From contig NZ_ATYW01000023.1 of the NCBI RefSeq assembly GCF_000427885.1, forward strand, positions 1 to 64,000: a stretch of DNA of 64,000 nt, read 5' to 3'. How positions within the stretch are numbered: the first letter of the stretch is position 1; each line of letters starts with the position of its first letter. The stretch is from Glycomyces tenuis DSM 44171 (GTDB taxonomy: Bacteria; Actinomycetota; Actinomycetes; Mycobacteriales; Micromonosporaceae). The position numbers were made by a program, and so were the translations under genes. Shown here piece by piece: positions 1-13,762 of the stretch. A model generated the notes under the pieces. The model had not been told where the DNA came from. It did not search any database and saw only the letters and a program-made list of their open reading frames with translations.

Positions 1-264
1 AAGTGCTGCAACGAACTTGGCGTCATGCAATCGCGGGCCCGGGTCGGATCCTCGGCTGACAACGCCCTCGCCGAATCGTTCAACGCCACGCTCAAACGAG
101 AAGTCCTGCAAGGACGCCGGACCTTCGCGAACGCATTGGAGGCTCGCTTCCAGGTCGAGTCCTGGATCACCGATTACAACACGACCCGGAGACACTCGTC
201 TCTGGGCCAGATCTCACCGATCGACTACGAACAACGGCAAGCTAGCCTCGCCATCGCCGCATAG
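1..264 (+). CDS. IS3-family transposase OrfB, C-terminal end (partial)
   Basis: The reading frame is open from base 1, so the gene starts left of the window; only about 87 C-terminal residues are present. The sequence around DNALAESFNATLKRE carries the last acidic residue (E) of the DDE integrase catalytic triad, and WITDYNTTRRHSSLG is the typical IS3/IS2-type rve_3 tail. The protein would cut and join the insertion sequence ends. It has landed inside the TraB-like gene of an integrative element that reads on the other strand. Whether the left part of the IS is intact cannot be seen. Confidence 0.9.
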   Translation, partial: KCCNELGVMQSRARVGSSADNALAESFNATLKREVLQGRRTFANALEARFQVESWITDYNTTRRHSSLGQISPIDYEQRQASLAIAA

Positions 265-288
265 GACGGTGTCAACACCAAAGGGGTA
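1..288 (+). mobile_element. Right part of an IS3-family insertion sequence
   Basis: The transposase stop at 262-264 is followed by about 24 bases before sequence that reads, on the minus strand, as the interrupted TraB-like gene. The boundary near 288 is inferred from where the minus-strand protein stops resembling its family (after LLGKPGA). The bases GTGTCAACACCAAAGGGGTA (268-287) are the likely terminal repeat. The other terminus and the target duplication are outside the window. Confidence 0.7.
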
Positions 289-885
289 AGCCCCGGGCTT
301 GCCGAGCAGACCGAGCCCAGCAACGACGGCCGTACCGGTACCCCAGACCGCGACCGGCGGGGCGGCCAGTGCGAGGGCCGTACCGGTAGCGGCCAGGCCC
401 AGGCCGGTGGCGGCGCATACGATGCCGCGCCAGCGGACTCGCCGATCCCGCAGCCGGGCCAAGCTCTGGTACGCCTGCCAGTCGTGACCGGCAACGGCGT
501 CGGCGCGGGCGGGGCGGCCCTCGGCATCCGACGCCCAGTGCCAGACCGCACCAGTGAGGCGGGCCGTACCGACCGGCGCCCACGCGAGCAGTCGGGCGCT
601 GTAGAGCGGGAACCGCACCGCGTGGTAGGCGCACCGGTACGCCGCGAGACGCCCGTACCGGGCGGCCTGGTCGAGCAGACCGGTACGGGACGTGGCCCAC
701 GCCGGAAGGATCGGCGCGCGCTTGTCGGTGGTCGGCGCGTCCCATGCCGCGTGCGCGACCGCATCGTCGACCAGGACCGCGCCAGCGTCGGCGTAGTCGT
801 CGTCGGGGGTGATGGTCTCGATTTCGGGCTTGCGGCCGTTGACGTCGTCCTCGGCGGCCTGCCAGTCGAAGTTTTCAATCGTCAT
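289..885 (-). pseudogene. TraB/TraSA-like FtsK/SpoIIIE conjugative translocase, interrupted N-terminal part
   Basis: About 199 N-terminal residues remain. The order of parts is that of AICE-type FtsK/SpoIIIE translocases: an acidic N-terminus (TITPDDDYADAG), the motif RAPILPAWATSRTGLLDQAARYG in shortened family form, an amphipathic stretch with PLYSARLLAWAP, a charged RLRDRRVRWRGI segment, and two membrane helices (about residues 150-195). The ATPase motor domain is missing because the IS3 element starts right after the second helix. The frame runs on by chance into the IS to base 214. Such proteins pump double-stranded plasmid DNA between mycelia; without the motor this copy should not work unless the rest lies intact beyond the IS. 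The start at 885 has GGGAG about 9 bases upstream. Confidence 0.75.
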
Positions 886-918
886 AGTGGTTGGCTCCCT
901 TCCCTCTCAGGGGGTGGT

Positions 919-957
919 GGGTGTGGCGCGGTCGAGCAGCGATGCCGCGCCACACCC
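919..957 (-). terminator. 13-bp perfect hairpin between the DUF2637 gene and the traB-like gene
   Basis: Bases 919-931 pair perfectly with 945-957 around a 13-base loop. There is no T-run. It sits in the only sizeable gap in this part of the operon, so it may reduce transcription into traB or act as an mRNA-processing or stability element. Confidence 0.5.
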
Positions 958-968
958 GTGGCGGTACG

Positions 969-2189
969 TCAGTTGGCGGACGGGACGGTGGTGGGCTCGG
1001 CGGCGAGCGCGAGGACGCGGCGGGCCCGGTCGGTGCCGATGCCCAGATCGGTGCGGGCCCGGTTGATCGACACCGGTCGGCCGGTGTCGGCCTCGATAGC
1101 GCGGATGCGGTCGACCAAGGCGGCATCGGTCGGGCCCTTGCCCTTGCCGCGCTTGGCGGTACCGGTACGGGCCTTGCGATGCGGCTTAGCGGGAACCTCG
1201 GCGTTGGTCCGGTTAGTGGTTGTGTCCTTGGCGGCGCGGTCGGTCTGCTTGGTGGCCTTGCGCTCGGCGCGGGTCAGTTTCGCGGCGTCGCGGCGTGCGG
1301 CCTTCTCAGCGGTCTTCGCGTCACGCTCGGCAGTGCGGGCGGCATCGGCCTTAGCGGCGGCCCGCTCGGTCCGGTCGGCGTCGACCCGGGCGAGCAGCTC
1401 GGCGGCGCCGGTGCCGACACGCGAGCGCACATCCAGGCTCCAGGCGGCGAAGGTCGAGCGCGGGTAGCGGACCCAGCGGCGCCACCCGAACCGCTCGGGC
1501 GGGTCGGGGATGAGCCCGAGGCGGCGCAGCGCGTCACGATGCTTGGCGCCGGAGCGGACCTCCCACACCACGATCGCGGCCAGGGATGAGGCGCCGAGGA
1601 CGGCGGCCATGACCAGGTCGTCGGCGTGCGCGCCGAAGTTGATCGCGGCCGCGAAAGACGCGGCGACCCAGGTCATGATGCGCGGGGTGAGCGCGCGTTC
1701 GCCCTTGAGGCGCTGCTGGTGGGCCGTCAGCGCCATCGACAGGGCGGTGCCTTCCAGGAACGCGGCCATGCCGATCCCGATCGCGACCGGCCAGCCGCGC
1801 TCGGTGGCGACCGAGATCTGGCCCGAGACGGCCACGTACAGGGCCATGCCGTAGATCCCAGCGGAGTACACGGCTGGGGCGTTGCCGCGCGCGTAGCCGA
1901 TGACCGAGGCGAACGCCTCGGAGTGGCGGGCCGCGCGGGCCTCGCGCCGCTGGGCGCGCCGCTGCGCCTTCCGAGCCGCCTCGGCGTCCCGAGCGGCGGC
2001 CTTGGCCTCACGCTCAGCCAGGGCGGCTTCGGCGCGCTTGCGCGCCAGCTCGGCTTCAGCCTCCTTGGCGCGGATCTTGCGCTCGGTCTCAGCGTCAGCC
2101 GCGGCGATCTTCGCGTCGGTGGTCGCGGCGATCCGGTGTGCCTTGGCCCGAGCGTCCGCCTCGGCGTACGTGGTCACTGGAGCGGTCAT
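969..2189 (-). CDS. DUF2637-type membrane protein of an AICE (Spd/transfer region)
   Basis: A 406-residue protein with three parts. Residues about 1-90 are a long Ala/Glu/Arg/Lys coiled coil. Residues about 95-225 hold four hydrophobic segments (YSAGIYGMALYVAVSG, WPVAIGIGMAAFLEGTALSM, IMTWVAASFAAAINF, LVMAAVLGASSLAAIVVWE), the core of the DUF2637 family found in conjugative elements of actinomycetes. The rest is a basic Lys/Ala-rich tail ending in a predicted helix-turn-helix-like stretch (DLGIGTDRARRVLAL). The family is thought to help plasmid spread between hyphae (Spd functions), probably at the membrane next to TraB, whose gene follows. The start at 2189 overlaps the upstream stop as ATGA, so the two genes are translationally coupled. 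Confidence 0.8.
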   Translation of the reverse strand: MTAPVTTYAEADARAKAHRIAATTDAKIAAADAETERKIRAKEAEAELARKRAEAALAEREAKAAARDAEAARKAQRRAQRREARAARHSEAFASVIGYARGNAPAVYSAGIYGMALYVAVSGQISVATERGWPVAIGIGMAAFLEGTALSMALTAHQQRLKGERALTPRIMTWVAASFAAAINFGAHADDLVMAAVLGASSLAAIVVWEVRSGAKHRDALRRLGLIPDPPERFGWRRWVRYPRSTFAAWSLDVRSRVGTGAAELLARVDADRTERAAAKADAARTAERDAKTAEKAARRDAAKLTRAERKATKQTDRAAKDTTTNRTNAEVPAKPHRKARTGTAKRGKGKGPTDAALVDRIRAIEADTGRPVSINRARTDLGIGTDRARRVLALAAEPTTVPSAN

Positions 2190-2647
2190 CGCTGGTCCTC
2201 CTTTGCGGGCAGGGCCGTCGCGACAGCGGCGGCAAGCTCGTTGGCGGGGGTCCACAGGCCCAGTTGGCCTCGGGCCGGGATCGGGTCGAGGAGCGGGCGG
2301 ACATTGGCCAGGACCCAGTGCCAGGTCTCGGGGCCGTGGTCGCCCCAGCGGGCACATGCGCCGCTGTTGCAGCGCCAGGGCCAGCCCGAACCGTGGCACT
2401 CGGTCAGGTCGGCGACGGCGACCACGGCCCCGAGCGGCAGCGCCTCACGCTCGGGAACCGCCGATTGCCCGAACCGCCCCCGGGCCCGGGCCCACTGGGC
2501 GACCGGGAGGGTCTTGGCGGCGTGGATCAGAACCGGGCCGCGCCAGTGCGTGCGGCGAGTGCGGTTCTCGACGGTCTTGCCGCCACGGGCGATCAGATGC
2601 GCCCAGGGCTGGCGAACGGTCAGCGCCCGGATGACGGTGACGGTCAT
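2186..2647 (-). CDS. ASCH-domain protein
   Basis: A 153-residue protein. The N-terminal part (IRALTVRQPWAHLIARGGKTVENRTRRTHWRGP, shown here only as a landmark from residue 5) has the ASCH hallmark of a Q-P-W-A-x-x-I core followed by G-x-K-x-x-E-x-R. ASCH domains have a PUA-like beta barrel and are believed to bind RNA or modified nucleotides, and they are common in phages and plasmids. The two-Cys segment CNSGACARWG is unusual. The gene is joined by four-base ATGA overlaps to both neighbours, so it is one translational unit with the DUF2637 gene. A role in RNA-level control of the element or as an anti-restriction factor is only a guess. Confidence 0.75.
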   Translation of the reverse strand: MTVTVIRALTVRQPWAHLIARGGKTVENRTRRTHWRGPVLIHAAKTLPVAQWARARGRFGQSAVPEREALPLGAVVAVADLTECHGSGWPWRCNSGACARWGDHGPETWHWVLANVRPLLDPIPARGQLGLWTPANELAAAVATALPAKEDQR

Positions 2648-3123
2648 GCCGCCACCTCCACAGCGTCCGCACGGGCGGCCTCGATCGCCTTGGCGACCAG
2701 GGCCTCGGCGGCCTCGGCATTGACTTCCCAGGGCCAGAAGAACAGGCGCAGGGTCACCGCCAAGCCCGCCAGGTGCACCCGCACGGCGAACATGGTTGGG
2801 CCGGGCTCGCTCTCGGCGACCTTGACGGTGTAGTCCTCAACGCCTTGGTCGACCAGCCAGGCCGCGAACGCTTCGGCTTGGGCCTCGGTACCCCTCGGCG
2901 TACGGGATTTCACCGGGGAGGCACTGAGCCGGGGGTTGCCTGCGCAGTCGGTGAGGCAGTTCAGCCGCAGCGGCGGCAGGTGCGCGGGCAGGTGCGGGCC
3001 GAACAGGTCGGCCAGCGCAGCCGAGCGCGCACGGTTGCGGAGCTGCGCGATTTCATCCTCGACGCTCATATCGGCGGCGAACATCTCGGCAGCGAGGTCG
3101 GCGGTGGTGATCGCTTCGGTCAC
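2644..3123 (-). CDS. Hypothetical protein of the AICE operon
   Basis: A 159-residue protein starting with GTG at 3123, nine bases after the preceding stop. The first 45 residues are acidic and helical (DMSVEDEIAQLRNRARSAAL). The middle is proline-rich. The C-terminal half looks like an alpha/beta fold (DYTVKVAESEPGPTMFAVRVHLAG, TLRLFFWPWE) with a final amphipathic helix. I recognise no named domain. Overlap with the ASCH start and common strand place it in the same mRNA. Function unknown. Confidence 0.7.
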   Translation of the reverse strand: MTEAITTADLAAEMFAADMSVEDEIAQLRNRARSAALADLFGPHLPAHLPPLRLNCLTDCAGNPRLSASPVKSRTPRGTEAQAEAFAAWLVDQGVEDYTVKVAESEPGPTMFAVRVHLAGLAVTLRLFFWPWEVNAEAAEALVAKAIEAARADAVEVAA

Positions 3124-3132
3124 GGCAGCCTC

Positions 3133-3321
3133 CTACGACAGTGAGAAGTCGACGCCGGAGGCGTCGAGGTCGTCGAGCGCGCCGATGGCGTCGAACTCGA
3201 CCAAGCGGTCAAGGACAGAGATCTCAGCGGCGATGACAGGCCACTCGGCCTCGATCGCGGCCAGCTCAGATGCGGTCGGCTCGGAATCGAACCAGTCGAG
3301 CGCGGTCTTAGTGGTGGTCAC
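3133..3321 (-). CDS. Small acidic hypothetical protein
   Basis: A 62-residue, strongly acidic protein (LDWFDSEPTASELAAIEAEW; LVEFDAIGALDDLDASGVDF). I chose the GTG at 3321 because GGGAGG lies about six bases upstream; longer in-frame starts would run into the hammerhead element. It resembles the short acidic proteins often encoded between Spd-type genes of AICEs. Its mRNA leader begins in the hammerhead ribozyme at 3363-3422. Function unknown. Confidence 0.65.
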   Translation of the reverse strand: MTTTKTALDWFDSEPTASELAAIEAEWPVIAAEISVLDRLVEFDAIGALDDLDASGVDFSLS

Positions 3322-3362
3322 AGGTGCCTCCCAGGCAGTGTCTTGGCGGACGGGATTGGCTT

Positions 3363-3422
3363 GGCTCATCAGCGGGCCGGGAGCCACCCGACACCGGACC
3401 AGGCGTGCCGCCTGGTTTCGCC
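3363..3422 (-). ncRNA. Type II hammerhead ribozyme (copy 1)
   Basis: Read on the minus strand, the element has every conserved hammerhead position. GGC-GAAA starts it (3422-3416), then a stem III hairpin CCAGGC/GCCTGG closed by the A15.1-U16.1 pair, the GUC cleavage triplet, a stem I hairpin starting CGG and ending CCG, CTGATGA (3372-3366), and GCC, which closes stem II with the initial GGC. Stem II is the open one, so this is the type II permutation. Cleavage is predicted between 3397 and 3396. The element starts directly behind the DUF3307 stop codon and about 40 bases ahead of the next start. Stem II is only 3 bp. Confidence 0.9.
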
Positions 3423-3863
3423 CTAGACGTTGGCGCCAGCGGCGATCAGCACGGACGCGACGAACAGGCATCCGGCGTGAAATGACTGGTCGAGCAGGTA
3501 CGGGCCGTTGATGCCGCCGCCCTTGACCTCGGTGAACTCGCCATGACCAGTGGCGCGGGCCAGCCACAGCAGCGGAGCCCGACGATCAGCGAAGTAGTGC
3601 GTGACAGCGGAGAACACCAACCCAGCGACGGTGAACGGCACCGACAGCGGCAGGCCGACCACGAACACCAAGGCCAGCAGCGCCGCAAGCGCCGTGGCCG
3701 TATAAGTGACGACGTGAGCGATGCAGTGCAGGCGGCCAGACCATCCGGACTCAGCCTTGGCCTGGCTCTGGTGGTGGCTCTGCACCCAGTGGTCCCCCAC
3801 CTGGTGCGCGGCCCACAGCGCGCCATACACGGCTCCGAACGACGCGATAGCAAGGGTGTTCAT
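3423..3863 (-). CDS. DUF3307-type membrane protein
   Basis: A 146-residue membrane protein. The N-terminal helix holds AAHQVGDHWVQ, the metal-binding-looking H-x-x-x-D-H signature of DUF3307 proteins, followed by hydrophobic segments at about 50-72 (VVTYTATALAALLALVFVVG) and 75-92, then HYFADRRAP and a final helix. The start at 3863 is chosen because GGAG lies six bases before it; an ATG at 3884 in the same frame has no ribosome site. DUF3307 genes are frequent in AICEs and actinomycete plasmids, and their function is unknown. Hammerhead elements flank the gene on both sides, so its mRNA could be cut out as a separate transcript. Confidence 0.75.
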   Translation of the reverse strand: MNTLAIASFGAVYGALWAAHQVGDHWVQSHHQSQAKAESGWSGRLHCIAHVVTYTATALAALLALVFVVGLPLSVPFTVAGLVFSAVTHYFADRRAPLLWLARATGHGEFTEVKGGGINGPYLLDQSFHAGCLFVASVLIAAGANV

Positions 3864-3902
3864 CAGCAACTCCAGGTCTTTCATGACGGACGAAATCGGC
3901 TT

Positions 3903-3973
3903 GGCTCATCAGCACCCCGGAAGCCACCCGGAATGGACCAGACCCGCCCCCGTAGCACGGGCCTGGTTTCGCC
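3903..3973 (-). ncRNA. Type II hammerhead ribozyme (copy 2)
   Basis: Same layout as the copy at 3363-3422 but with changed stems that keep pairing. Stem III here is 9 bp (CCAGGCCCG with CGGGTCTGG, one G-T pair). Stem I starts CAT and ends GTG instead of CGG/CCG, a clear set of compensatory changes. The core letters GAAA, GUC and CTGATGA and the 3-bp stem II are intact. Predicted cleavage is between 3936 and 3935. The first G of the ribozyme is the last base of the TAG stop of the upstream gene. Confidence 0.9.
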
Positions 3974-4179
3974 TAGCGGCTCCTGCGAGAAGGCCAGCGA
4001 GACTCGCTCCAGCCGCGCTCGTCTTCCTGGCGCGACTGCTCCAAGGCGGTCTCGGCCTTGCGGACCTCACGCATGATGCGGTTGGTTTCCTTGCGGTCGC
4101 CTCGCTCGTCAGCGGCCATCGCGCCATCGAGCAGGCGGTTGTACTCGTTGCGGTAGTGGTTGGTGTGTCGGCTCCACAT
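3973..4179 (-). CDS. Small charged hypothetical protein
   Basis: A 68-residue protein that is mostly one charged helix (RNEYNRLLDGAMAADERGDR; MREVRKAETALEQSRQEDER) with a basic tail. The ATG at 4179 has AAGGAG eight bases upstream. A short coiled-coil or nucleic-acid-binding role would fit the composition, but no family is recognised. It lies between two hammerhead elements. Confidence 0.65.
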   Translation of the reverse strand: MWSRHTNHYRNEYNRLLDGAMAADERGDRKETNRIMREVRKAETALEQSRQEDERGWSESRWPSRRSR

Positions 4180-4207
4180 GGCGTTGCTCCTTATGCAGGT
4201 TCGGCTT

Positions 4208-4277
4208 GGCTCATCAGCGGGCCGGGAGCCACCCGGGCCCGGACGCTCGACCCCTATGCGGGGCCGGGCGTTTCGCC
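4208..4277 (-). ncRNA. Type II hammerhead ribozyme (copy 3)
   Basis: The element lies two bases after the TGA stop of the NUDIX gene. Stem III is extended (CGC/GCG, one C-A mismatch, then a 7-bp stem). Stem I (CGG ... CCG with an inner CGGG/CCCG hairpin) is like copy 1. GAAA, GUC and CTGATGA are complete and stem II is again GGC/GCC. Predicted cleavage is between 4242 and 4241. Three copies with independent stem sequences but the same core make chance very unlikely. Confidence 0.9.
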
Positions 4278-4279
4278 GG

Positions 4280-4906
4280 TCAAACGGTGAGCTGGGCGAA
4301 CTGGTCACGCAACAGGCCGACATGGGCGGCGAAGAGCTCCCCGCCCCGATCGGCGACCGCGACGGCCAACTGGGCGTAGGAGGCGGCAGGCAGCCAGGCC
4401 GCCCGGCGCGCGTCGTCGCGGCCGTCCACCTCGGGCAGAGCGGGCGTGTGGAGCACGGCGACGCCGGGAACGGTGACCATCCACGCGGCCCGGCCCGCAC
4501 GCGGGTCCGGGACGTACCGGCCCGGGAGCATGGCGAACGCCTCGGCGTCGAGGACGAGCCCGGTCTCTTCGGCCAGCTCACGCGCGGCAGCGGTCTGGGG
4601 CGTCTCGCCGGAGTCGAGCATCCCGCCCGGCAGTGCCCAGCCGTGGTCGTCGCCTCGCTCGACCATCAGCAGGTGCCGGGCGCCGACGGCGTCGAAGGCG
4701 AACACGATCGCGTCGGCCGCGACGGCCTCACCCCAGTGCCACAGGCCGCCCCGACCGGCGGGCAGGGACGGCTCGACCGGGTTGATCGGCAGGCCATCGA
4801 CGTCCACGTTGAACGGGACCACCGCGCGCTCCTGCCGCACCGGCCAGTCGATGACGCGCGGGTCGGTGGCATCCGGGCCACCCGAAACGGTGATGTTGAA
4901 AGACAT
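4280..4906 (-). CDS. NUDIX hydrolase
   Basis: A 208-residue protein. The Nudix box is clear around residues 95-117: GGMLDSGETPQTAAARELAEE with TG next, matching G-x5-E-x7-R-E-x-x-E-E-x-G. These enzymes cleave nucleoside diphosphates linked to another group, here with unknown substrate. An N-terminal extension of about 70 residues precedes the fold. In AICEs such as pSAM2 a Nudix protein (Pra) activates element replication, so a regulatory role is an attractive but unproven inference. The ATG at 4906 has AGGAG upstream. It is the first gene of the minus-strand operon and diverges from the GntR-kinase gene, sharing its operator region. Confidence 0.85.
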   Translation of the reverse strand: MSFNITVSGGPDATDPRVIDWPVRQERAVVPFNVDVDGLPINPVEPSLPAGRGGLWHWGEAVAADAIVFAFDAVGARHLLMVERGDDHGWALPGGMLDSGETPQTAAARELAEETGLVLDAEAFAMLPGRYVPDPRAGRAAWMVTVPGVAVLHTPALPEVDGRDDARRAAWLPAASYAQLAVAVADRGGELFAAHVGLLRDQFAQLTV

Positions 4907-4999
4907 GCATTGCTCCTGTCGTGTCTTGGCGGACGGGAAGGACACCGGACGGTGGCCTCGTGTCGCTGGCCACTTGCCGTGACCGGCGATACATAGAAG

Positions 5000-5032
5000 T
5001 TATCAGTTGATAAGTTTCAGAGTCAACTGATA
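5000..5032. promoter_or_regulatory. Palindromic operator region between the NUDIX operon and the GntR-kinase gene
   Basis: Bases 5000-5013 read TTATCAGTTGATAA, and a 10-bp inverted repeat links TATCAGTTGA (5001-5010) to TCAACTGATA (5023-5032). A related palindrome, CTCTCAACTGAGAG, lies at 5118-5131, just before the GntR-kinase start. The sequence is AT-rich against its surroundings. Autoregulation by the encoded GntR winged helix is the simplest reading. Confidence 0.6.
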
Positions 5033-5139
5033 CCTAGAAAGTTCCCGAATGTTGGGAATGTTGGATTAATGCCGCTGGTAGATGCTGTTCACCTACAGAA
5101 CGCAGCTGATAGGCTTGCTCTCAACTGAGAGGATGTGGG

Positions 5140-5979
5140 ATGACCGACGAACGAATGCTGGTTACCGGAGGCTCCAAACACGAGCAGATCGCCAGGATCA
5201 TCAGGAACGACATTGAGTCGGGCAAGCTCCGCCACGGCCAGAAGCTCCCATCCGACCGAGAGCAGGCGGTGCAGTTCGGCGTCAGCTCCCCCGTCGTCGC
5301 CAAGGCAATGAGCAAGCTGACCGATGAAGGTCTCGTCATATCGAAGCCGCGCGCGGGACGGGTCGTCCACGCTCCCGACCAGGCGGAAACCCGAGAGGTG
5401 GAGACCTCAATGCCCCATCTCATCCTCATCGGTGGTTACGCAGGCAGCGGAAAGTCAGAACTTGGCAGAACGCTGGCACGTCTGACAAGCTGGGCGATGG
5501 TCGACAAGGACACGACCACGCGCCCCGTCGTCGAGACGGCCCTTGAGGTGATGGGCACTTCGCCCAACGACCGCGAGTCGGACATCTACCTCAACCAGGT
5601 CCGACCGCGCGAGTACGAAGCGGTAATGGCCACCATCACTGAAAACCTCACCTCTGGAAGCAACGTCATTGCCACAGCTCCCTTCATCAGGGAGTTGAAG
5701 GACGAAGCCTGGATTCAGCGCCTCCAGTCTCTCTGTGACGCAACCGGAGCCCGGCTGATGGTCATCTGGGTTTACTGCGACGCCGAGTCGATGCACACAT
5801 ACCTACGCGGTCGAGGTGCCGCGCGGGATGCGACCAAGCTCGCAAACTGGAGTCAGTACCTGGCCAACATCGACCTTGACTACCGCCCCGCCATAGACCA
5901 TTTCGTGGTCGACAACTCTCTGAGCGGTTCGCCGCTGCTCGATCAAGCCAAGGAACTGGTGGCCAAGCTCCGCCAGTGA
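5140..5979 (+). CDS. GntR winged-helix fused to a P-loop (AAA_33-like) kinase
   Basis: A 279-residue fusion. Residues about 12-78 are a GntR helix-turn-helix (IRNDIESGKLRHGQKLPSDR, then EGLVISKPRAGRVV). Residues about 93-275 form a P-loop kinase domain with Walker A GGYAGSGKSE at 98-107. Zeta-toxin-like or AAA_33 kinases look like this and phosphorylate small molecules such as nucleotides or sugars. The domain could instead be a ligand sensor replacing the usual GntR effector domain. The ATG at 5140 follows GAGAGGATG. It diverges from the NUDIX operon with palindromic operators in between. It is probably the element's regulator coupling a metabolic signal to transfer genes. Confidence 0.75.
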   Translation: MTDERMLVTGGSKHEQIARIIRNDIESGKLRHGQKLPSDREQAVQFGVSSPVVAKAMSKLTDEGLVISKPRAGRVVHAPDQAETREVETSMPHLILIGGYAGSGKSELGRTLARLTSWAMVDKDTTTRPVVETALEVMGTSPNDRESDIYLNQVRPREYEAVMATITENLTSGSNVIATAPFIRELKDEAWIQRLQSLCDATGARLMVIWVYCDAESMHTYLRGRGAARDATKLANWSQYLANIDLDYRPAIDHFVVDNSLSGSPLLDQAKELVAKLRQ

Positions 5980-5999
5980 GCTGAAGCTCTGAGTCCTTG

Positions 6000-6252
6000 G
6001 CCAATATGGCCAATATGGCCAGAATTTCAAAACGTCGCTTCTGAGCTGGGGAAATGTCCTGAACTCCGGCATGGCCAGAATTCGGACAGAAATGGAGGAG
6101 GCATGGCCAGAATTCCACGGGCAGGCCGCGCCGGACTGAATTCTGGCCATGTCCGGTTGATTTCTGTCCGAATTCTGGCCATGCCGACGCATCGGGTATT
6201 TCCGCAGGTCAACCCGCACAAGCTGGAATTCTGGCCATATTGGCCATTTTGG
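6000..6252. repeat. 250-bp near-symmetric palindrome with six copies of ATGGCCAGAATT
   Basis: Direct copies of the 12-mer lie at 6015-6026, 6071-6082 and 6103-6114. Inverted copies lie at 6139-6150, 6171-6182 and 6227-6238. All three pairs share the same centre (6126.5), with spacings of 56 and 32 bases mirrored on both sides. The pair 6071-6093/6160-6182 is a perfect 23-bp inverted repeat, and the outer arms extend with repeated AATATGGCC. No protein is encoded. An origin of replication or transfer, or a cluster of repressor sites, would fit an AICE. Confidence 0.85.
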
Positions 6253-7147: not shown

Positions 7148-7193
7148 CGGTTTCCTAAACCGTGCGTCGCAGGTTCGAATCCTGCCTGGGGCA
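7148..7193 (+). other. Attachment site: 3' part of tRNA-Arg(CCU)
   Basis: From 7148 the sequence reads as the anticodon arm with loop TTCCTAA (anticodon CCU), the variable loop, a perfect T-arm (GCAGG TTCGAAT CCTGC at 7069+100 to 7185), the acceptor strand CTGGGGC and discriminator A at 7193. The 5' half of a tRNA (an acceptor strand GCCCCAG and D-arm) is absent upstream. The outermost anticodon-stem pair is a T-T mismatch, which marks the crossover border. This is the right junction of an element inserted in tRNA-Arg; the complete tRNA is expected at the left junction. Confidence 0.85.
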
Positions 7194-7210
7194 CCCATGG
7201 ACACAGGTCA

Positions 7211-7232: not shown

Positions 7233-7528
7233 TCAGCCTTTCCCGCACCCCTGGAACGGATCCGGAACGGATGGGATCGGCCGGCCGGTCGACGCGAGCG
7301 CGGACGCGCGGCGAGGCTTCGGCGCCGCCGCGGGTGATGGCGAGGGCAGAGGTCGGGCGCCTGGACGTCCTCGACGGCGGCGGCCTCAAGAGCACGGCCG
7401 CGAGGACGGCGGGCCGGGGGCCCCGGCGGATTTCATGCCTCGGCACGGCCGTGACAGCGCGGGGACGGGCCTCTGACAGGACGGCGGGCGATCGTTGCTT
7501 CAACACAGCAACGACCTGGAGGAAGACC

Positions 7529-8308
7529 ATGACCCGCCACCTCAGGATCCCCGTCGCCGACACCGTCCTGGACGCCAACGACACCGGCGGCCCCGGCCGC
7601 CCCGTCGTCTACCTGAACGGCGGCTACGCCGGACAGCGGCCCTGGCGGCCCGTGCTCGCCGAGCTCGGCGCCGACTACCGGCACATCACCTTCGACCCGC
7701 GGGCCCGAGGCAAGTCGGGGCGCTCGGCGGACAACTCCTTCGAGGCGTGCCTCAGCGACATCGACGCCGTCCTCGAAGCCACCGGCGTGGAACGCCCGCT
7801 GCTCGTCGGCTGGTCCTACGGCGCGACGCTCGGAGCCCACTGGGCCGAGCGGAACCCGGACCGCGTCGCCGGAGTGGTGTCCGTGGACGGCGCCATGCCG
7901 TACGGTCTGACCGGCGAGGAGGGCCGCGAGCGGATCCGCAGGCTGTTCCACAGGATGCGGTGGCTGCTGCCGCTGGTGCGCCCGCTGGGCCTGTCCGCGA
8001 AGATGACCGCCGCCGAGCACGCCGAGAACAACATCGAGGTCAACGAGATCACGGCCGCGATGGCCCCGGTCCTCGAGCGCATCGCCTGCCCGGTGCGGTA
8101 CGTCCTGGCCACCAGCGGCAACCTCGGCGCGGGCGACGAGGAAATGGAAGCGGTGCGGGCCTCGCTCGACCCGGTGCTCGCCCGGAACCCGAACCTCCAG
8201 ATCAGCGCGAAGGTCGACAGCAACCACTCCCAGATCCTGCGCAAGGACTTCCGGGCCGTCGCCCGGGCCGTGCGCGAGACCGAGGCGGCCGTTGTCGGGC
8301 AGCGCTGA
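7529..8308 (+). CDS. Alpha/beta hydrolase
   Basis: A 259-residue cytoplasmic protein. The nucleophile elbow GWSYGA (G-x-S-x-G) lies near residue 95. The oxyanion region is VVYLNGGYAGQRPW, and the Asp of FDPRARGKSGRS belongs to the usual strand-4 motif. The C-terminal SNHSQ supplies the catalytic His. A small lid occupies about 135-190. Substrate unknown. The ATG at 7529 has TGGAGGAA seven bases upstream; a longer frame runs upstream but has no ribosome site. It is followed 39 bases later by the DUF4097-like gene on the same strand. Confidence 0.85.
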   Translation: MTRHLRIPVADTVLDANDTGGPGRPVVYLNGGYAGQRPWRPVLAELGADYRHITFDPRARGKSGRSADNSFEACLSDIDAVLEATGVERPLLVGWSYGATLGAHWAERNPDRVAGVVSVDGAMPYGLTGEEGRERIRRLFHRMRWLLPLVRPLGLSAKMTAAEHAENNIEVNEITAAMAPVLERIACPVRYVLATSGNLGAGDEEMEAVRASLDPVLARNPNLQISAKVDSNHSQILRKDFRAVARAVRETEAAVVGQR

Positions 8309-8347
8309 CCGCACCGTCCATCGACAACGACTCAGGAGGGCGCCATC

Positions 8348-8890
8348 ATGCCTGCTTTCGACACTCCCGCTCCGATCTCCGCCGTCGTCGACATCGTCCT
8401 CGGGGACGTCCGCTTCATCGCCTCGGACCGCGCCGACACCGTCGTCGAGGTCCACCCGCTCGACCCGTCCCGGCGGCTGGACGTCGAGGCCGCCGAACGG
8501 CTCGGCGTCGAGTTCGCCGACGGGAGGCTGACGGTCGCGCCGCGCGCGGCGTCCGCCGGCAAGCACGGCTCGGTCAGGGTGCTGGTCGAGCTGCCGACCG
8601 GCTCGGACGTGCGCGGCCAGACCGAGCAGGGCGAGCACCTCGTCCGAGGCGCGGTCGGCTCGTGCCGGCTGACGACCGCCATCGGGGACATCCGGGTCGG
8701 TCGGGCCGCCGAGGCGCGATTGCGGGTCGGCGACGGCAAGGTGATCGTGGACCACGTGACCGGCCGGGCCGAGGTCCGCGGCAACGGGGACGTCCGGATC
8801 CGCCGGGCCGACGGCGGCGCGACGGTCGAGAACGCGGGCGGCGACATCGTCGTCCACCGCGCCCGGCCCGAGCTCACCGGGCGAGCGTGA
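8348..8890 (+). CDS. DUF4097-like beta-helix protein
   Basis: A 180-residue protein without signal peptide or membrane helix. It consists of short beta repeats typical of the DUF4097/DUF4098 family (GDVRFIAS, GSVRVLVELPTGSDVRG, GDIRVGRA, GDVRIRRADGG, GDIVVHRA). The family folds as a beta helix and has no known activity; many members sit near transport or stress regulators. RBS CAGGAGG lies upstream of ATG 8348. The 3' end overlaps the AfsR-like gene tail by 17 bases in convergent orientation. Confidence 0.75.
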   Translation: MPAFDTPAPISAVVDIVLGDVRFIASDRADTVVEVHPLDPSRRLDVEAAERLGVEFADGRLTVAPRAASAGKHGSVRVLVELPTGSDVRGQTEQGEHLVRGAVGSCRLTTAIGDIRVGRAAEARLRVGDGKVIVDHVTGRAEVRGNGDVRIRRADGGATVENAGGDIVVHRARPELTGRA

Positions 8891-11800
8891 CCTCGGCCAG
8901 CTCGCGCCAGTCCGAGCCCTGCCCGTCGCGGACCGCCTCGGCGAACGCCGTTTCGCCGAGGCGGCTTCGCGCGTCCTCGGCGATCCGGTCGGCGTCGGGC
9001 TGGGAGCGGTCCGGCGTGCCGCGCACGCCGTCGCTCGCCGCGAGCAACCGCACGGCCTGCTCCTCGTCTCCTCGGCGCATCGCGAGGTCCGCGATCCCCA
9101 CCAGCGCCTGCGCGATCATCGGCGGATAGCCCAACTCGACGGCGGCGCGGAGCGCCTCGGCCCGGTGGGCGCCGGACCGGTCGAGGTCCTCGGCGAGGTA
9201 GCCGCGCAGGTGCTCGGCCATGACGTGGATGCCGCTGCGTTCGCCGCCGGAGTTCTCGACCGTCGCCAGCTGCTCGCGCGCCGCTTCGGGCTCGCCGCGC
9301 CACAGCGCCAGCTGCGCCCTCGCGAACGCCAGCTCGGCGAGCGTGTCCGGCCAGGTGATCCCCTCGGCGAACCGCCGCGCCCGCGCCATGGCGGCGTCGC
9401 AGGACCGCTCGTCGCCGAGCATCCAGTACAGCCGGGCCTGCCGCGTCCGCAGCCCGACCACCTCTTCGGTGGAGCCCAGCGCGGTCAGCGCCGCGATCGC
9501 CTCCTCGTAGTGCTCGCACGCGGACGCGAACTCGCCGCGCGCGGCGAGCCGGTCGGCGAGGAAGGTCAGCGCCGAGGAGACGCCCCACCGGTCGCCCAGC
9601 GCGCGGAACTCGGCGAGGGCGGTCTCGATGTCGTCGTCCACATCGGTCTCGTCGCGGCCGAGCGAGAGCCGCAGCCGGCCGCGGGCGAGCCTGGCCTGCG
9701 CGCGCACCCACGGGTCGGCGTCGGCGACGAGCGGGTCGAACGCGGGCAGGAAGTTCTCCGGTTCCCGCAGCATCCGCTCCAGCGGCCGGACGAAGCCGAG
9801 CATCGGGTGGTGGTACCCGCTGCGCTCGGCGGACCGGTGCGCCTTCTCGATCCACTCCCGCGCCCGGTACTGGTCGCCGCCGTACCCGGAGGACAGGAAC
9901 AGCGCCACGAGGTTGTACACCAGCGCCCGCACCTCGTCGGGCACCTCGCCTTCGAGGGAGGCGGCGGCGACGGCCAGCTCGGTGCCCTCGGCCCGGTGCC
10001 CGCCGAGGTACCAGTACCAGCCCGCGGCCCCGGCCAGCCGCATCGCCTCCTCGGCCCGCCCTTCGGCGACGGCGCCGCGCAGGGCTGCGCCGATGTCGTC
10101 GTGCTCGGCTTCGAGCGCGGCCAGCCATTCCAGCTGCTCGGCGCGGCGCAGGTGCGGGTCGGCGGTCTCGGCCAGCTCGGTGACGTGGGCCAGGCGCGCC
10201 TGGCGCGCCGACTCGGCCTCTCCGGCCTCGGCGAGCCGCTGCGCCGCGTACTCCCTGATGGTGCCCAGCATCCGGTACCGCGGCGCGCCTTCGCCGTAGG
10301 AGCGCAGCAGCGACTTCTCGGTCAAGGAGGTCAGCAGGTCGAGCGCGTACTCCCCTTCGGGGCACACCCGTTCGGCCGCTTCCAGGCTCACTCCGCCGGT
10401 GAACACCGACAGCCGCCGCAGCAACCGGCGTTCGGCCTCGCTCAGCAGGTCCCAGCTCCAGTCCACGACGGCGCGCAGCGTCCTGTGGTGGGGCAGCGCC
10501 GTGCGGCTGCCGCCGGTCAGGAGCTGGAAGCGGTCGTCGAGCCGGTCGGCCAGCTGCTCGACGGACATGGTGCGCAGGCGGGCCGCGGCCAGTTCGATCG
10601 CCAGCGGCATCCCGTCGAGCGCCCGGCAGATCCGCGCCATCGTGGCCACGGTCCGCTCGTCGGAGCCGATGTTCCTGCGCACCGCCTCGGCCCGGTCCCG
10701 CAGCAGCCGCACCGCGGGCGAGGAGCCGGCCTCCGCCGGGTCCGCGTCCTCGGCGGGCACGGCGAGCGGCTCGACCTGCCACAGCGCCTCTCCGGTGATG
10801 CCGAGCGGTTCCCGGCTCGTGGCGATGATCCGCAGGTTCCGGCATTCCCCGAGGAGCCGGTCGGCGAAGACCGAGACCTCCTCGATCATGTGCTCGCAGT
10901 TGTCCAGGACCAGCAGCATCACGCGCTCGCGGACGGCGGCGACGAGCCGGTCCGTCGCGTCCCCGGCCGCGGCCCCGCCGGACGGGGCCTGGTCGCGCAG
11001 GCCGATCGCGGTCAGCGCGGCCTGCGCGAGCTCGCCGCCCGCCCGCAGCGGGGCCAGTTCCACCAGCCACGCCCCGTCCGGCAGCTCGCCGAGCATCCTC
11101 CGCGCGGTCTCGGTGGCCGTTCTGGTCTTGCCGGAGCCGCCGGCGCCGGTCAAGGTGACCAGGCGGTGCCCGGCGGCGAGCGCGGCGACGGCGGCGACGC
11201 CGTCCTCCTTGCCGACGAAGGCGGTCAGCTCGGCGCGCAGGTTCGTCCTGCGGTTCTCCGCCCGCCCGCCGATCTCGCCGCGCAGCAGCGCGGTGTGCAG
11301 CGCCGACAGTTCGGCGGAGGGGTCCGCTCCCAGTTCGTCGGCCAGCCGCTCGGACAGCTCCCGGTAGACCGTCAGGGCCTCGGCGCCCCGGCCGGAGTCG
11401 GCGAGGGCGCGCATCAGGGCCGCGACGAAGCCTTCCCGCAGCGGGTACCTCGCCACCAGATCGGTCAGTTCGGGGACCAGGTCCGCGCCTCGGCCGAGGC
11501 GGATCTCCGCGTCCACCCGGTCCCCGAGCACGGCGAGGCGGCGCTCGCCCAGCCCGGCGACCTCGGCGTCGAAGGCCCTGCTGCCGAGCAGCGCGATGCC
11601 TTCCATGGGGCTTCCGCGCCACAGGTCCAGGGCCGAGCGCAGCAGCTCCACCCGCTCGGGGTCCTCGGCGGAGCGGGAGCGGGCGAGCAGCGACTCGAAG
11701 CGGCTCACGTCCACTTCGTCGGAGTCGACGACGAGCCGGTACCCGCCGGACTTCGCCTCGACCGAGCCGTCCGGCAGGACCTTGCGCAGCCTGGAGACCA

Positions 11801-11996
11801 GGACCTGCAGGGCGTTCACCTCGTCGGCGGGCGGCTCCTCGCCCCAGATCCAGTCGACCAGTCTCGCCCGCTGGACGATCCGGCCGGGTTCGAGCGCGAG
11901 CGCCGCCAGCAGCGCGCGCAGGCGGGCGCCGGGGACCTCCACCGCGGCCCCGTCGCCGGTCTGGACTTCGAACGGGCCGAGTATTCCGATTCGCAC
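8874..11996 (-). CDS. AfsR/SARP-type regulator with NTPase and TPR domains
   Basis: A 1040-residue protein with the classical AfsR order. Residues 1-92 are an OmpR-like winged helix (LVDWIWGEEPPADEVNALQV), residues 95-240 the BTAD domain, then an NB-ARC-type ATPase with P-loop GAGGSGKTR at 284-292 and LLVLDNCEH as Walker B. A TPR-like C-terminal half follows (about 600-1030). SARPs activate secondary metabolite or export genes, and ATP hydrolysis tunes activity. The GTG at 11996 may be leaderless, as AAGATT lies six bases upstream. It diverges from an ABC exporter operon, a likely target. The long open frame on the opposite strand is a codon-bias shadow. Confidence 0.9.
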   Translation of the reverse strand: MRIGILGPFEVQTGDGAAVEVPGARLRALLAALALEPGRIVQRARLVDWIWGEEPPADEVNALQVLVSRLRKVLPDGSVEAKSGGYRLVVDSDEVDVSRFESLLARSRSAEDPERVELLRSALDLWRGSPMEGIALLGSRAFDAEVAGLGERRLAVLGDRVDAEIRLGRGADLVPELTDLVARYPLREGFVAALMRALADSGRGAEALTVYRELSERLADELGADPSAELSALHTALLRGEIGGRAENRRTNLRAELTAFVGKEDGVAAVAALAAGHRLVTLTGAGGSGKTRTATETARRMLGELPDGAWLVELAPLRAGGELAQAALTAIGLRDQAPSGGAAAGDATDRLVAAVRERVMLLVLDNCEHMIEEVSVFADRLLGECRNLRIIATSREPLGITGEALWQVEPLAVPAEDADPAEAGSSPAVRLLRDRAEAVRRNIGSDERTVATMARICRALDGMPLAIELAAARLRTMSVEQLADRLDDRFQLLTGGSRTALPHHRTLRAVVDWSWDLLSEAERRLLRRLSVFTGGVSLEAAERVCPEGEYALDLLTSLTEKSLLRSYGEGAPRYRMLGTIREYAAQRLAEAGEAESARQARLAHVTELAETADPHLRRAEQLEWLAALEAEHDDIGAALRGAVAEGRAEEAMRLAGAAGWYWYLGGHRAEGTELAVAAASLEGEVPDEVRALVYNLVALFLSSGYGGDQYRAREWIEKAHRSAERSGYHHPMLGFVRPLERMLREPENFLPAFDPLVADADPWVRAQARLARGRLRLSLGRDETDVDDDIETALAEFRALGDRWGVSSALTFLADRLAARGEFASACEHYEEAIAALTALGSTEEVVGLRTRQARLYWMLGDERSCDAAMARARRFAEGITWPDTLAELAFARAQLALWRGEPEAAREQLATVENSGGERSGIHVMAEHLRGYLAEDLDRSGAHRAEALRAAVELGYPPMIAQALVGIADLAMRRGDEEQAVRLLAASDGVRGTPDRSQPDADRIAEDARSRLGETAFAEAVRDGQGSDWRELAEVTLAR

Positions 11997-12128
11997 GTCG
12001 GCAATCTTGCCGCATCGGCGGCCGTGGCATCCAGGCCGCGTGCCCGGCTGTGTCGACCACTCGGTGGACAGCCGGATTCGGCCGCGCGGTCGTCGCGGCG
12101 GCGAGCGCGGCGGGCCACGCTGGACCAC

Positions 12129-12962
12129 ATGAACGACACAGCGATCCGAGTGCGCGGCCTGCGCAAGCGCTACGGGGGAACCCCCGCGGTCGACGGCCTC
12201 GACCTCGACGTCACCAGAGGCGAGACCCTCGCCGTCCTCGGCCCCAACGGCGCCGGCAAGTCCACCACCGTGCAGATCCTCTCCGCCCAGCTGCCTCGGG
12301 ACGGCGGCGAGGTCGCCGTGCTCGGCACCGACCCCGCGCAGGCCGACCGGCGCTTCCGCTCCCGCCTGGGCATCGTCTCCCAGACTGCGGGCGACCTGCT
12401 CGAACTCACCGTCGCGGAGGTCGTCAGGCACTTCGCCGGCTACTACCCGCGCCCCCGCGACCCGGGCCGCGTGATCGCCGAGGTCGGCCTCGCCGAGCAG
12501 GCGAAGCGGAAGATCCGTCAGCTCTCCGGCGGCCAGCGCCGCCGCGTCGACGTCGCGCTCGGCGTCGTCGGCAACCCCGAGCTGCTGTTCCTCGACGAGC
12601 CCACCACCGGCTTCGACCCCGAAGCGCGCCGCCGGTTCTGGGACCTCGTCCGCTCCCTGGCCGCCGACGGCACCACCATCCTGCTCACCACCCATTACCT
12701 CGACGAGGCCGAGGCGCTGGCCGACCGGATCGCCGTCATCGCGTCGGGCCGCATCCGCGCCTGCGGCACCGTCGCCGAGCTGGTCGACGACCGCGAGGTC
12801 ACCGTCTCCTGGCGGGACGGCGGCAAGACCACCGACACGCCGGCCGCGCTGATCGCCGAACTGAGCGCGGGCTACGCCGGCGAGGTCCCCGGACTCACCG
12901 TCACCCGCCCGTCCCTCGAAGACGCGTATCTGCGCCTGACCGGTCAGGAGGCGATCGCATGA
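12129..12962 (+). CDS. ABC transporter ATPase (ABC-2 exporter type)
   Basis: A 277-residue ATPase with Walker A GPNGAGKST (about 38-46), signature LSGGQRRRVD, Walker B LLFLDEPTTGFDP and the switch His in TTHYLDEAE. The C-terminal extension is that of DrrA/CcmA-like drug-efflux ATPases. It energises the membrane protein encoded next, with which it shares an ATGA overlap at 12959-12962. The operon continues into a sensor kinase and response regulator, so export is probably under control of that two-component pair and perhaps of the divergent AfsR protein. Confidence 0.93.
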   Translation: MNDTAIRVRGLRKRYGGTPAVDGLDLDVTRGETLAVLGPNGAGKSTTVQILSAQLPRDGGEVAVLGTDPAQADRRFRSRLGIVSQTAGDLLELTVAEVVRHFAGYYPRPRDPGRVIAEVGLAEQAKRKIRQLSGGQRRRVDVALGVVGNPELLFLDEPTTGFDPEARRRFWDLVRSLAADGTTILLTTHYLDEAEALADRIAVIASGRIRACGTVAELVDDREVTVSWRDGGKTTDTPAALIAELSAGYAGEVPGLTVTRPSLEDAYLRLTGQEAIA

Positions 12963-13762
12963 CCATGCCGAACGCCCTGAGCATCGGGGCCGCCCGCGGC
13001 GCCGTCGAGCTCAAGCAGTTCTTCCGCGAGCGCAGCTCCGTGGTCTTCACCTTCACCTTCCCGGCCGTGCTGCTGGCCCTGGTGGGCTCCATCTTCGACA
13101 GCGACGCCCTCACCGGGGCCGTCGGCGGCGGCCAGGTCCTCACCGCCAGCTTCGCCGCCGCCGGGATCGTCTCCACCTCGTTCGTCAACCTCGGCACCGC
13201 TCTGGCCGTCGAGCGCGACGACGGCACCCTGAAGCGGCTGCGCTCCCTGCCCATGCCGCCGGTCTCGTTCTTCCTGGGCAAGATCGTGCTGGTCGTCGTG
13301 GCCAGCGTCGCCGAACTGGTGCTGCTGCTGGCCATCGGCGTGCTGATGTTCGACGTCGCCCTGCCGAGCGAGGCGAGCGCCTGGCTGACGGTGGCGTGGC
13401 TGTTCGCCCTCGGGATCACCGCCTGCTCCCTGCTGGGCATCGCCGCCTCCAGCCTGGCGCGCAGCGCCCGCAGCGCCGGGGTGATGACGACGCTGCCGTA
13501 CACGGTGCTGCTGTTCATCTCCGGGGTCTACACCCCGATCCAGACGCTCCCGGACTGGATGGCCGGCATCGGCTCGGTCTTCCCCGTCAAATGGCTCGCC
13601 CAGGGCTTCCGGGCCGCGCTCCTGCCCGAGCACATGGCCGCCCAAGAGCCGGCCGGGCAGTGGGAGCTGGGGAAGGTCGCCGTTGTCCTGGCGCTGTGGT
13701 GTGTTGGAGGATTGGTGCTGTGCCTGACGACCTTTCGCTGGCGGAGCAGTCTCACCCGATGA
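12959..13762 (+). CDS. ABC-2 type permease
   Basis: A 267-residue membrane protein with six predicted helices, for example TFTFPAVLLALVGS, FAAAGIVSTSFVNLGTALAV, IVLVVVASVAELVLLLAIGV, LTVAWLFALGITACSLLGIA, TLPYTVLLFISGVYTP and VAVVLALWCVGGLVL. The loop ERDDGTLKRLRSLPMP between helices 2 and 3 is the conserved ABC-2 coupling motif. It forms the pore partner of the preceding ATPase. Substrate unknown, drug or lipid likely. It is coupled by ATGA at both ends. Confidence 0.9.
   Translation: MTMPNALSIGAARGAVELKQFFRERSSVVFTFTFPAVLLALVGSIFDSDALTGAVGGGQVLTASFAAAGIVSTSFVNLGTALAVERDDGTLKRLRSLPMPPVSFFLGKIVLVVVASVAELVLLLAIGVLMFDVALPSEASAWLTVAWLFALGITACSLLGIAASSLARSARSAGVMTTLPYTVLLFISGVYTPIQTLPDWMAGIGSVFPVKWLAQGFRAALLPEHMAAQEPAGQWELGKVAVVLALWCVGGLVLCLTTFRWRSSLTR

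Follow-up and report, generated by a model that had tools for sequence, protein, structure and literature searches.

Three consecutive intergenic gaps of one operon in Glycomyces tenuis DSM 44171 each hold a type II hammerhead ribozyme on the sense strand. Each of these gaps probably encodes an active ribozyme that cuts the operon transcript between genes and uncouples the stability and expression of the neighbours. The ribozymes and the genes around them lie near the start of the window, i.e., the whole stretch of 64,000 nucleotides that was analysed, and their coordinates are collected in Table 1. Self-cleavage is known for the type II hammerhead class; that the window copies are active in the cell, with consequences for mRNA ends and expression, we infer.

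Table 1. Hammerhead ribozymes of the window, the genes of the operon that carries them and the divergent regulator gene (positions are those of the window).
Feature	Position	Strand	Support
Last operon gene in the window (weak DUF3040)	214-885	minus	Pfam
DUF2637 gene	969-2189	minus	Pfam
ASCH gene	2186-2647	minus	Pfam
Operon gene	2644-3123	minus	no Pfam match
DUF6284-like gene, downstream of copy 1	3133-3321	minus	PF19801, E 1.1e-9
Type II hammerhead, copy 1	3354-3423 (core 3363-3422; pseudoknot tail to 3354; predicted cut 3397/3396)	minus	RF02276, 30.4 bits, E 0.0035; descriptor
DUF3307-like gene, between copies 2 and 1	3423-3884	minus	PF11750, E 1.7e-5
Type II hammerhead, copy 2	3894-3974 (core 3903-3973; predicted cut 3936/3935)	minus	RF02276, 36.7 bits, E 7.6e-5; minimum-energy fold
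68-aa gene, weakly DUF6435-like, between copies 3 and 2	3973-4179	minus	PF20027, E 0.0079, below curated cut-off
Type II hammerhead, copy 3	4199-4278 (core 4208-4277; predicted cut 4242/4241)	minus	RF02276, 32.4 bits, E 0.0011; descriptor
NUDIX hydrolase gene, first of the operon, ends 2 bases before copy 3	4280-4903	minus	PF00293, E 4.4e-17
Divergent GntR-AAA_33 regulator gene	5140-5979	plus	PF00392, PF13671

The ribozymes were sought with a structural descriptor that was blind to the coordinates of the window copies and demanded a CUGANGA core, GAAA, U16.1-H17, at least three pairs in each of stems I and III and at least two in stem II. The descriptor yielded coordinates and cleavage bonds identical to those of the original prediction, as well as the proposed type II order in all copies (GGC-GAAA, stem III hairpin, UC, stem I hairpin, CUGAUGA-GCC). 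Across 382,586 bases from 16 loci it found 45 copies, and in the same bases reversed or in six dinucleotide shuffles it found none. A search of the 64-kb window for the exact string CTGATGAGCC gives three matches, each inside one hammerhead copy. The covariance-model check that had been suggested succeeded in part: when positions 1-6000 of the window (6 kb) were compared by cmscan with 4227 Rfam families, Hammerhead_II (RF02276) matched at all three sites, but each score lay below the gathering score of 37 bits, and a scan of the window at that level returned zero matches. This threshold is a database cut-off and not a biological feature, and the window copies are filed here as members of RF02276 despite their sub-gathering scores.

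Single-strand folding gave the three-way hammerhead junction as the minimum-energy fold of copies 2 and 3, and a lowest-energy fold different from the hammerhead for copy 1. Compared with shuffled sequences, the stability of the folds is unremarkable, with z values of -0.87, -1.72 and -1.41 for copies 1, 2 and 3, respectively. The Rfam scores under threshold would suit relics or plain structured spacers, such as hairpin 3' ends or terminators, that do not catalyse anything. Such a reading is scarcely credible, however, as all three copies preserve the catalytic residues and the cleavage site, and in relatives loop I covaries with the tail, while a spacer needs neither.

All three copies retain the CUGANGA ... 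GAAA core, A15.1-U16.1 and an NUH cleavage site (UC), and by both Rfam and the descriptor, stems I and III are closed by loops and stem II is open, in the type II order. Read from the sequence, stem I consists of an outer helix of at least three pairs, an internal loop and an inner helix with a loop containing GGCU, and in all three copies this GGCU can pair with AGCC located directly 3' of stem II. The resulting pseudoknot between loop I and the 3' tail, which was absent from the original prediction, adds about nine bases to the 3' end of each element. In the portions of Perreault et al. 2011 (PMC3088659) available for this comparison, a pseudoknot is described for the majority of type II hammerheads and as critical for fast cleavage.

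Stems I and III had been noted to vary between copies while remaining paired, and this mostly holds in related elements too. Across 17 copies (14 related ones and the three of the window), stem I pairs 1-3 are paired in all 17, stem III pairs 3 to 7 are paired in 17, 14, 13, 16 and 16 copies, respectively, and changes on both sides occur at III.3-III.7, I.2 and I.3; in this count the search pattern largely dictates stem II and III.1-III.2, and the best-pairing register was chosen by the script. A covariance model (R1) was discarded because it had been built on a wrong RNAalifold structure and its MAFFT alignment misregistered the stems.

Complementarity between loop I and the 3' tail exceeds what chance would give. 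Among the matches listed for 127 loci, fetched by patterns without pseudoknot letters and passed by a descriptor that imposes no loop/tail pairing, a Watson–Crick run of at least four between loop I and tail was present in 102 of 200 distinct combinations. Over 500 permutations of these combinations the mean was 50.2 and the maximum 68. When the TGGCT/AGCC combinations were removed, 87 of 185 were still complementary, with a permutation maximum of 61. This test replaces an earlier one (134/251, maximum 89 in 200 permutations) that had included loci fetched with pseudoknot letters. Individual copies illustrate the compensation: in one copy of genome G004, the change of the loop from GGCU to GGUU comes together with a change of the tail from AGCC to AACC, while a copy in the Streptomyces phage Janus (L093, 41310-41364) has stem II as GCC/GGC rather than GGC/GCC and loop I/tail as UCUC/GAGA, both of them compensatory.

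As the RF02276 profile search of the whole genome recovered only one of the three window copies and gave sub-cut-off matches in five of 14 control genomes, DNA patterns were used to find relatives. Pattern matches were obtained in 11 of 300 genomes of the family, seven of which have real-looking copies, and in 5 of 22 genomes of the genus. Besides the three copies in the window's genome, six other family genomes carry one to four copies in elements: one in G049, four within 1 kb in G108, two in G004, one in G066, two by pattern and a third by descriptor in G135, and two plus one in G148. At the level of the order, 20 of 397 genomes matched, and real copies beyond the family are found in G557 (one) and G615 (six by pattern, ten by descriptor). 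The latter ten hammerheads lie within 6.3 kb of a prophage-like region (L086, G615:C65:308000-327500; 7418-13732, minus strand) with an integrase and a dATP/dGTP diphosphohydrolase domain, and in most of them the loop UGGCA is complementary to the tail UGCC(A). Among 396 genomes of the phylum, the window's genome is the only one with pattern matches that pass the descriptor. Matches in five other phylum genomes (one each), chance-looking family matches (L004, L005, L011, L014, L020) and chance-looking order matches (L060, L061, L063-L069, L071-L074) failed the descriptor and were dropped. A control with the pattern written backwards gave one match in the family search (G148) and one in the phylum search (G756). 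Four stretches with relatives of the flanking genes, namely L002, L003 and the plasmid pieces L058 and L059, contain no hammerhead by descriptor, and L002 and L003 none by Rfam either. With hammerheads in 5 of 22 genus genomes and about 7 of 300 family genomes, the ribozymes are dispensable. The description of the window copies as type II ribozymes that fill gaps on the sense strand was borne out, and such copies recur in related elements.

The operon had been assigned to the transfer region of an actinomycete integrative and conjugative element (AICE). Such elements combine an integrase, a Prim-Pol or RepSA replication protein and a TraB-type translocase. Replication, integrase and weakly TraB-like genes are indeed present in related elements, but no transfer, replication or integrase gene of the element was identified in the window, as the contig begins at base 1 of the window, within a match to IS3-type transposases, and lacks the remainder of the element. 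The related element L081 has both a Prim-Pol and an integrase, and its TraB-like protein, at 24.9 of 800 bits, falls far short of the curated cut-off. So does the TraB-like protein of L080, which moreover has no match in the window's genome; L080 itself bears hammerheads and shares the GntR-AAA_33 regulator with the window (76% identity, tblastn). The element is likely an AICE, the support for a transfer operon being indirect. By eye, window positions 7155-7195 resemble the 3' end of a tRNA gene and could be an attachment site of the element; in the whole window ARAGORN called no tRNA.

A second, related integrative element on another contig of the same genome (L283, G000:C24:341000-357099) is 82.7% identical to the window over 294-2148 and continues with a 707-codon open frame and with Prim-Pol (PF09250), AAA_25-like and integrase-like genes. 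Within the 707-codon frame, the match to the last operon gene of the window is confined to the first 203 residues (79% identity), and the similarity of the two elements ends near window position 294, where the IS3-like stretch starts; from this comparison, the gene looks as if it was cut by an insertion. No hammerhead was found in the L283 stretch. Similarly, the gaps between operon genes at 969-3123 of the window hold no further hammerhead by Rfam or descriptor. In L080 and L081, a 167-aa gene is followed by a hammerhead; its homologue in L283 (75% identity) runs straight into the DUF2637 gene. As L283 joins two of its backbone genes without a hammerhead, the ribozymes are located among the accessory genes.

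This distribution raises the question of whether the conserved cores are recombination sites at the boundaries of gene cassettes, so that cleavage would be incidental or would insulate newly arrived genes. The accessory genes around the hammerheads vary from one related element to another, the 167-aa gene precedes a ribozyme in L080 and L081 but directly adjoins the DUF2637 gene in L283, and four homologous genes each precede a hammerhead in two elements although the genes that follow have no blastp match. A unit composed of a gene plus its 3' hammerhead fits these four homologous pairs and was rejected because it fails for the 167-aa gene in L283. Recombination at the cores is nevertheless improbable: the stems vary between copies, the shared stretch is short, and core, stems and pseudoknot change as selection on an RNA predicts. 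Further, a tRNA-like element that occurs in related phages differs from the hammerheads in both sequence and fold.

The position of each copy relative to the adjacent codons had been given as zero to two bases after a stop codon. This is correct for copy 1 (0) and copy 3 (2), but not for copy 2, which lies at -1, the final G of the upstream TAG doubling as the first base of stem II. The accompanying statement that the copies end 23-42 bases before the next start is only approximate, the measured distances being 41 for copy 1, 18 (or 39 with the next ATG) for copy 2 and 28 for copy 3. Tight spacing is common in the element loci, where a stop codon lies near 24 of 28 copies; for 22 of these, its end falls in the span from 4 bases ahead of the ribozyme to 1 base into it. 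Of the 28 copies, 25 are followed by a start that has a ribosome-binding site, 22-44 bases after the core (17 at 24-31). The distance to the annotated next gene is 22-28 bases for 15 of the 20 copies in the Streptomyces phages Celia and Janus. Such distances would allow cutting to be regulated, in that a ribosome terminating or initiating nearby would cover part of the ribozyme and make cleavage dependent on translation of a neighbour. The chance that this is so appears small: the distance from stop to ribozyme in Celia and Janus can be anything from 0 to 47 bases (and 270 for one copy of a pair that shares a gap), so that the 5' spacing is not fixed there, and a compact genome has short gaps in any case.

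Hammerhead arrays also occur in viral contigs. One pattern scan of these returned 23 stretches and a second at least 120, and among the matches listed the descriptor recognises 273 distinct copies in 156 loci, a set that includes near-duplicate loci, with ten in the most crowded ones. In a set of 127 loci, again among the matches listed, every copy lies on one strand in all 47 multi-copy loci. Two of the contigs are the annotated Streptomyces phages Celia (L092) and Janus (L093), each of which carries 10-11 type II hammerheads on the minus strand at about 41-49 kb, in the right-arm operon. Seven hammerheads in Celia and eight in Janus score above the Rfam threshold. The strict descriptor finds ten copies in each phage, 19 of the 20 lying wholly in annotated gaps and the remaining one overlapping an annotated start by 25 bases.

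With a laxer stem III, the right-arm minus-strand gaps of 50 nt or more that hold a hammerhead number 10 of 12 for Celia, 9 of 10 for Janus (Rfam supplies one for the tenth gap), 4 of 6 for Amethyst and 5 of 7 for Diane. When gaps of at least 30 nt were counted over longer stretches with the strict descriptor, 10 of 14 were occupied in Celia and 9 of 14 in Janus. Counts by the strict descriptor are lower bounds, as mismatches in stem III cost it the one copy of L079, two of the four copies of L081 and a Celia copy, and it also misses one Janus copy that Rfam finds. An eleventh Celia copy, in the gap 48440-48548, was recognised with a laxer descriptor and by eye, and has no Rfam match at E 1.

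A different structure occupies the same kind of gap in phages related to these. Endor1 (L094, NC_054672) belongs to the same subfamily as Celia and Janus and has zero hammerheads by descriptor or Rfam; Chucky (L281) is a further related phage without a hammerhead. A recurring hairpin resembling the tRNA elbow is present in the Endor1 gaps that start at 43440, 44116, 44985, 45539, 46342, 46985, 47719 and 48055 (minus strand). Its parts, in order, are a 5-bp acceptor-like stem, a GGCA-containing linker of 12 nt, a second 5-bp stem whose loop is TTCGANN, a single base, the partner of the acceptor-like stem and ACT. A letter pattern that does not require pairing has eight matches in Endor1, where none is expected, and all eight lie in gaps and are fully paired. 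Counting right-arm minus-strand gaps of at least 50 nt, the tRNA-like hairpin occupies 8 of 12 in Endor1 and 6 of 11 in Chucky. A pattern search brought up 65 viral stretches (L214-L278), 59 of which have at least one copy that passes a paired descriptor. The 166 distinct copies show changes on both sides at eight or nine of ten pairs; the descriptor itself demands pairing, and the fetching pattern demands GGCA. All 45 multi-copy hairpin loci keep their copies on a single strand, as the hammerhead loci do.

The Endor1 hairpins are called neither by ARAGORN nor as any known Rfam family, and they are possibly an undescribed RNA element. RNase P recognises the tRNA elbow, and given the likeness to this elbow, the tRNA-like hairpin is likely an RNase P substrate. 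Few loci contain both devices: one of 142 fetched by hammerhead patterns (among the matches listed) and 4 of 65 fetched by the tRNA-like pattern. Where a gene followed by the hairpin is matched in Celia, a hammerhead follows it there in 5 of 5 cases for Endor1 and 4 of 4 for Chucky; the other matched genes are followed by a Celia hammerhead in 3 of 6 and 3 of 7 cases, respectively, all of these numbers being small. For hairpin-followed genes matched in Janus the corresponding values are 2 of 4 from each phage, which again are small numbers. The exchange of hammerhead and tRNA-like hairpin favours transcript cutting between genes as the function. A broader proposition is that some actinobacterial phages and integrative elements split an accessory or early operon into single-gene mRNAs with an RNA-cutting device in nearly every gap. 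Two unrelated devices would serve interchangeably, one being the type II hammerhead and the other a tRNA reduced to its acceptor stem, D-loop GG and T-arm, which the tRNA-processing enzyme of the host would cut. This generalisation is put forward tentatively, its chances of being right lying a little below even.

For the window itself, cutting between genes is the preferred account because of the orientation of the ribozymes, their placement in gaps, their recurrence, the covariation of the catalytic fold and the existence of another likely cut site in the same type of gap. Against it stand the sub-gathering Rfam scores, the fold of copy 1, the several operon gaps without a hammerhead, the directly joined backbone genes of L283, the hammerhead-free relatives of the flanking genes, the small share of genomes that have copies and the inactivity in vitro of some consensus-fitting hammerheads in the available portions of Perreault et al. 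2011 (PMC3088659). A type II hammerhead would cut the nascent operon transcript between two genes. The upstream mRNA would then end in a stem III hairpin, which would cap its 3' end and carry a 2',3'-cyclic phosphate, whereas the downstream mRNA would start with a 5'-hydroxyl leader made of the stem I hairpin, the pseudoknot tail and, usually, the ribosome-binding site. The result would be that stability and expression of adjacent accessory genes in one operon are uncoupled. The excised single-gene RNAs might instead be circularised or ligated, their 5' end (CUGANGA-stem II) pairing with their 3' end (stem II-GAAA-stem III), and the GGC/GCC geometry of stem II shared by consecutive type II copies in the window would permit this. 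Such a fate is very improbable, as tRNA-like hairpins could not give the ends needed and as, according to the portions of Perreault et al. 2011 (PMC3088659) available here, circular or spliced products were sought and none was detected.

The interpretation is only partly new. The original prediction had considered a set of self-cleaving elements between cistrons to be a new kind of operon processing, a claim that finds no support on comparison with Perreault et al. 2011 (PMC3088659): even the portions of that paper available here already contain the clusters, their cleavage and the proposal of single-gene mRNAs. There, prophage clusters of hammerheads flank single genes or short blocks, natural tandem arrays cleave in vitro, with one triple array also cleaving in E. 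coli, and single-gene mRNAs are proposed as the outcome of clustering; 4 of 18 hammerheads that fit the consensus were inactive in vitro. What is added here is the setting in an integrative element, the large share of phage-operon gaps that are filled and the tRNA-elbow-like hairpin that replaces the hammerheads in Endor1 and Chucky. In the open-licence literature, searched through titles and the openings of abstracts, no report was found that places hammerheads in conjugative elements of actinomycetes or in operons of Streptomyces phages, or that describes such tRNA-like hairpins. A link to phages through the binding of aminoglycosides to hammerheads (PMC9239200) was set aside, as it is mentioned only in the discussion in the available parts of that paper.

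The role of self-cleaving ribozymes in bacterial mobile elements is called open in the parts of two papers available here (PMC6155905, PMC10085705). Streptomyces phages with named Streptomyces hosts, some with hammerheads and related ones with the tRNA-like element, offer a testable set for this question. If both devices are cut, separation of transcripts would be their shared purpose and the ribozyme one of several routes to it.

Among known systems, the closest is RF02276 Hammerhead_II as treated in the available portions of PMC3088659, with which the window copies share the core, the type II order, a short stem II, the pseudoknot and the bacterial or phage setting. They differ in the long, partly interrupted stem III of copies 2 and 3, in the internal loop of stem I and in their scores of 30-37 bits. 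The clustered prophage hammerheads described there (the triple array of A. tumefaciens with ardA, A. caulinodans and C. scindens) are likewise several per transcript and flank single genes, and the window array, with two or more close together around single genes, fits this feature. Unlike those clusters, as far as the available portions describe them, the window array belongs to the operon of an integrative element, and the Streptomyces phages have ten to eleven copies per operon. The halovirus HF1/HF2 hammerhead, in the available text of PMC3088659 and PMC7230728, also lies in an early-gene transcript just upstream of a start (13 bases ahead of a helicase gene), with a 5' end mapped near the cut, but it belongs to an archaeal virus, has a variant core and is a single copy. 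Finally, twister and other self-cleaving RNAs whose neighbouring genes are of the kinds also found next to hammerheads (PMC10085705, available parts) suggest that different cutters can take similar places; in contrast to the cases given there, the substitute in the phage operons is tRNA-like and lies where Rfam finds no known family.
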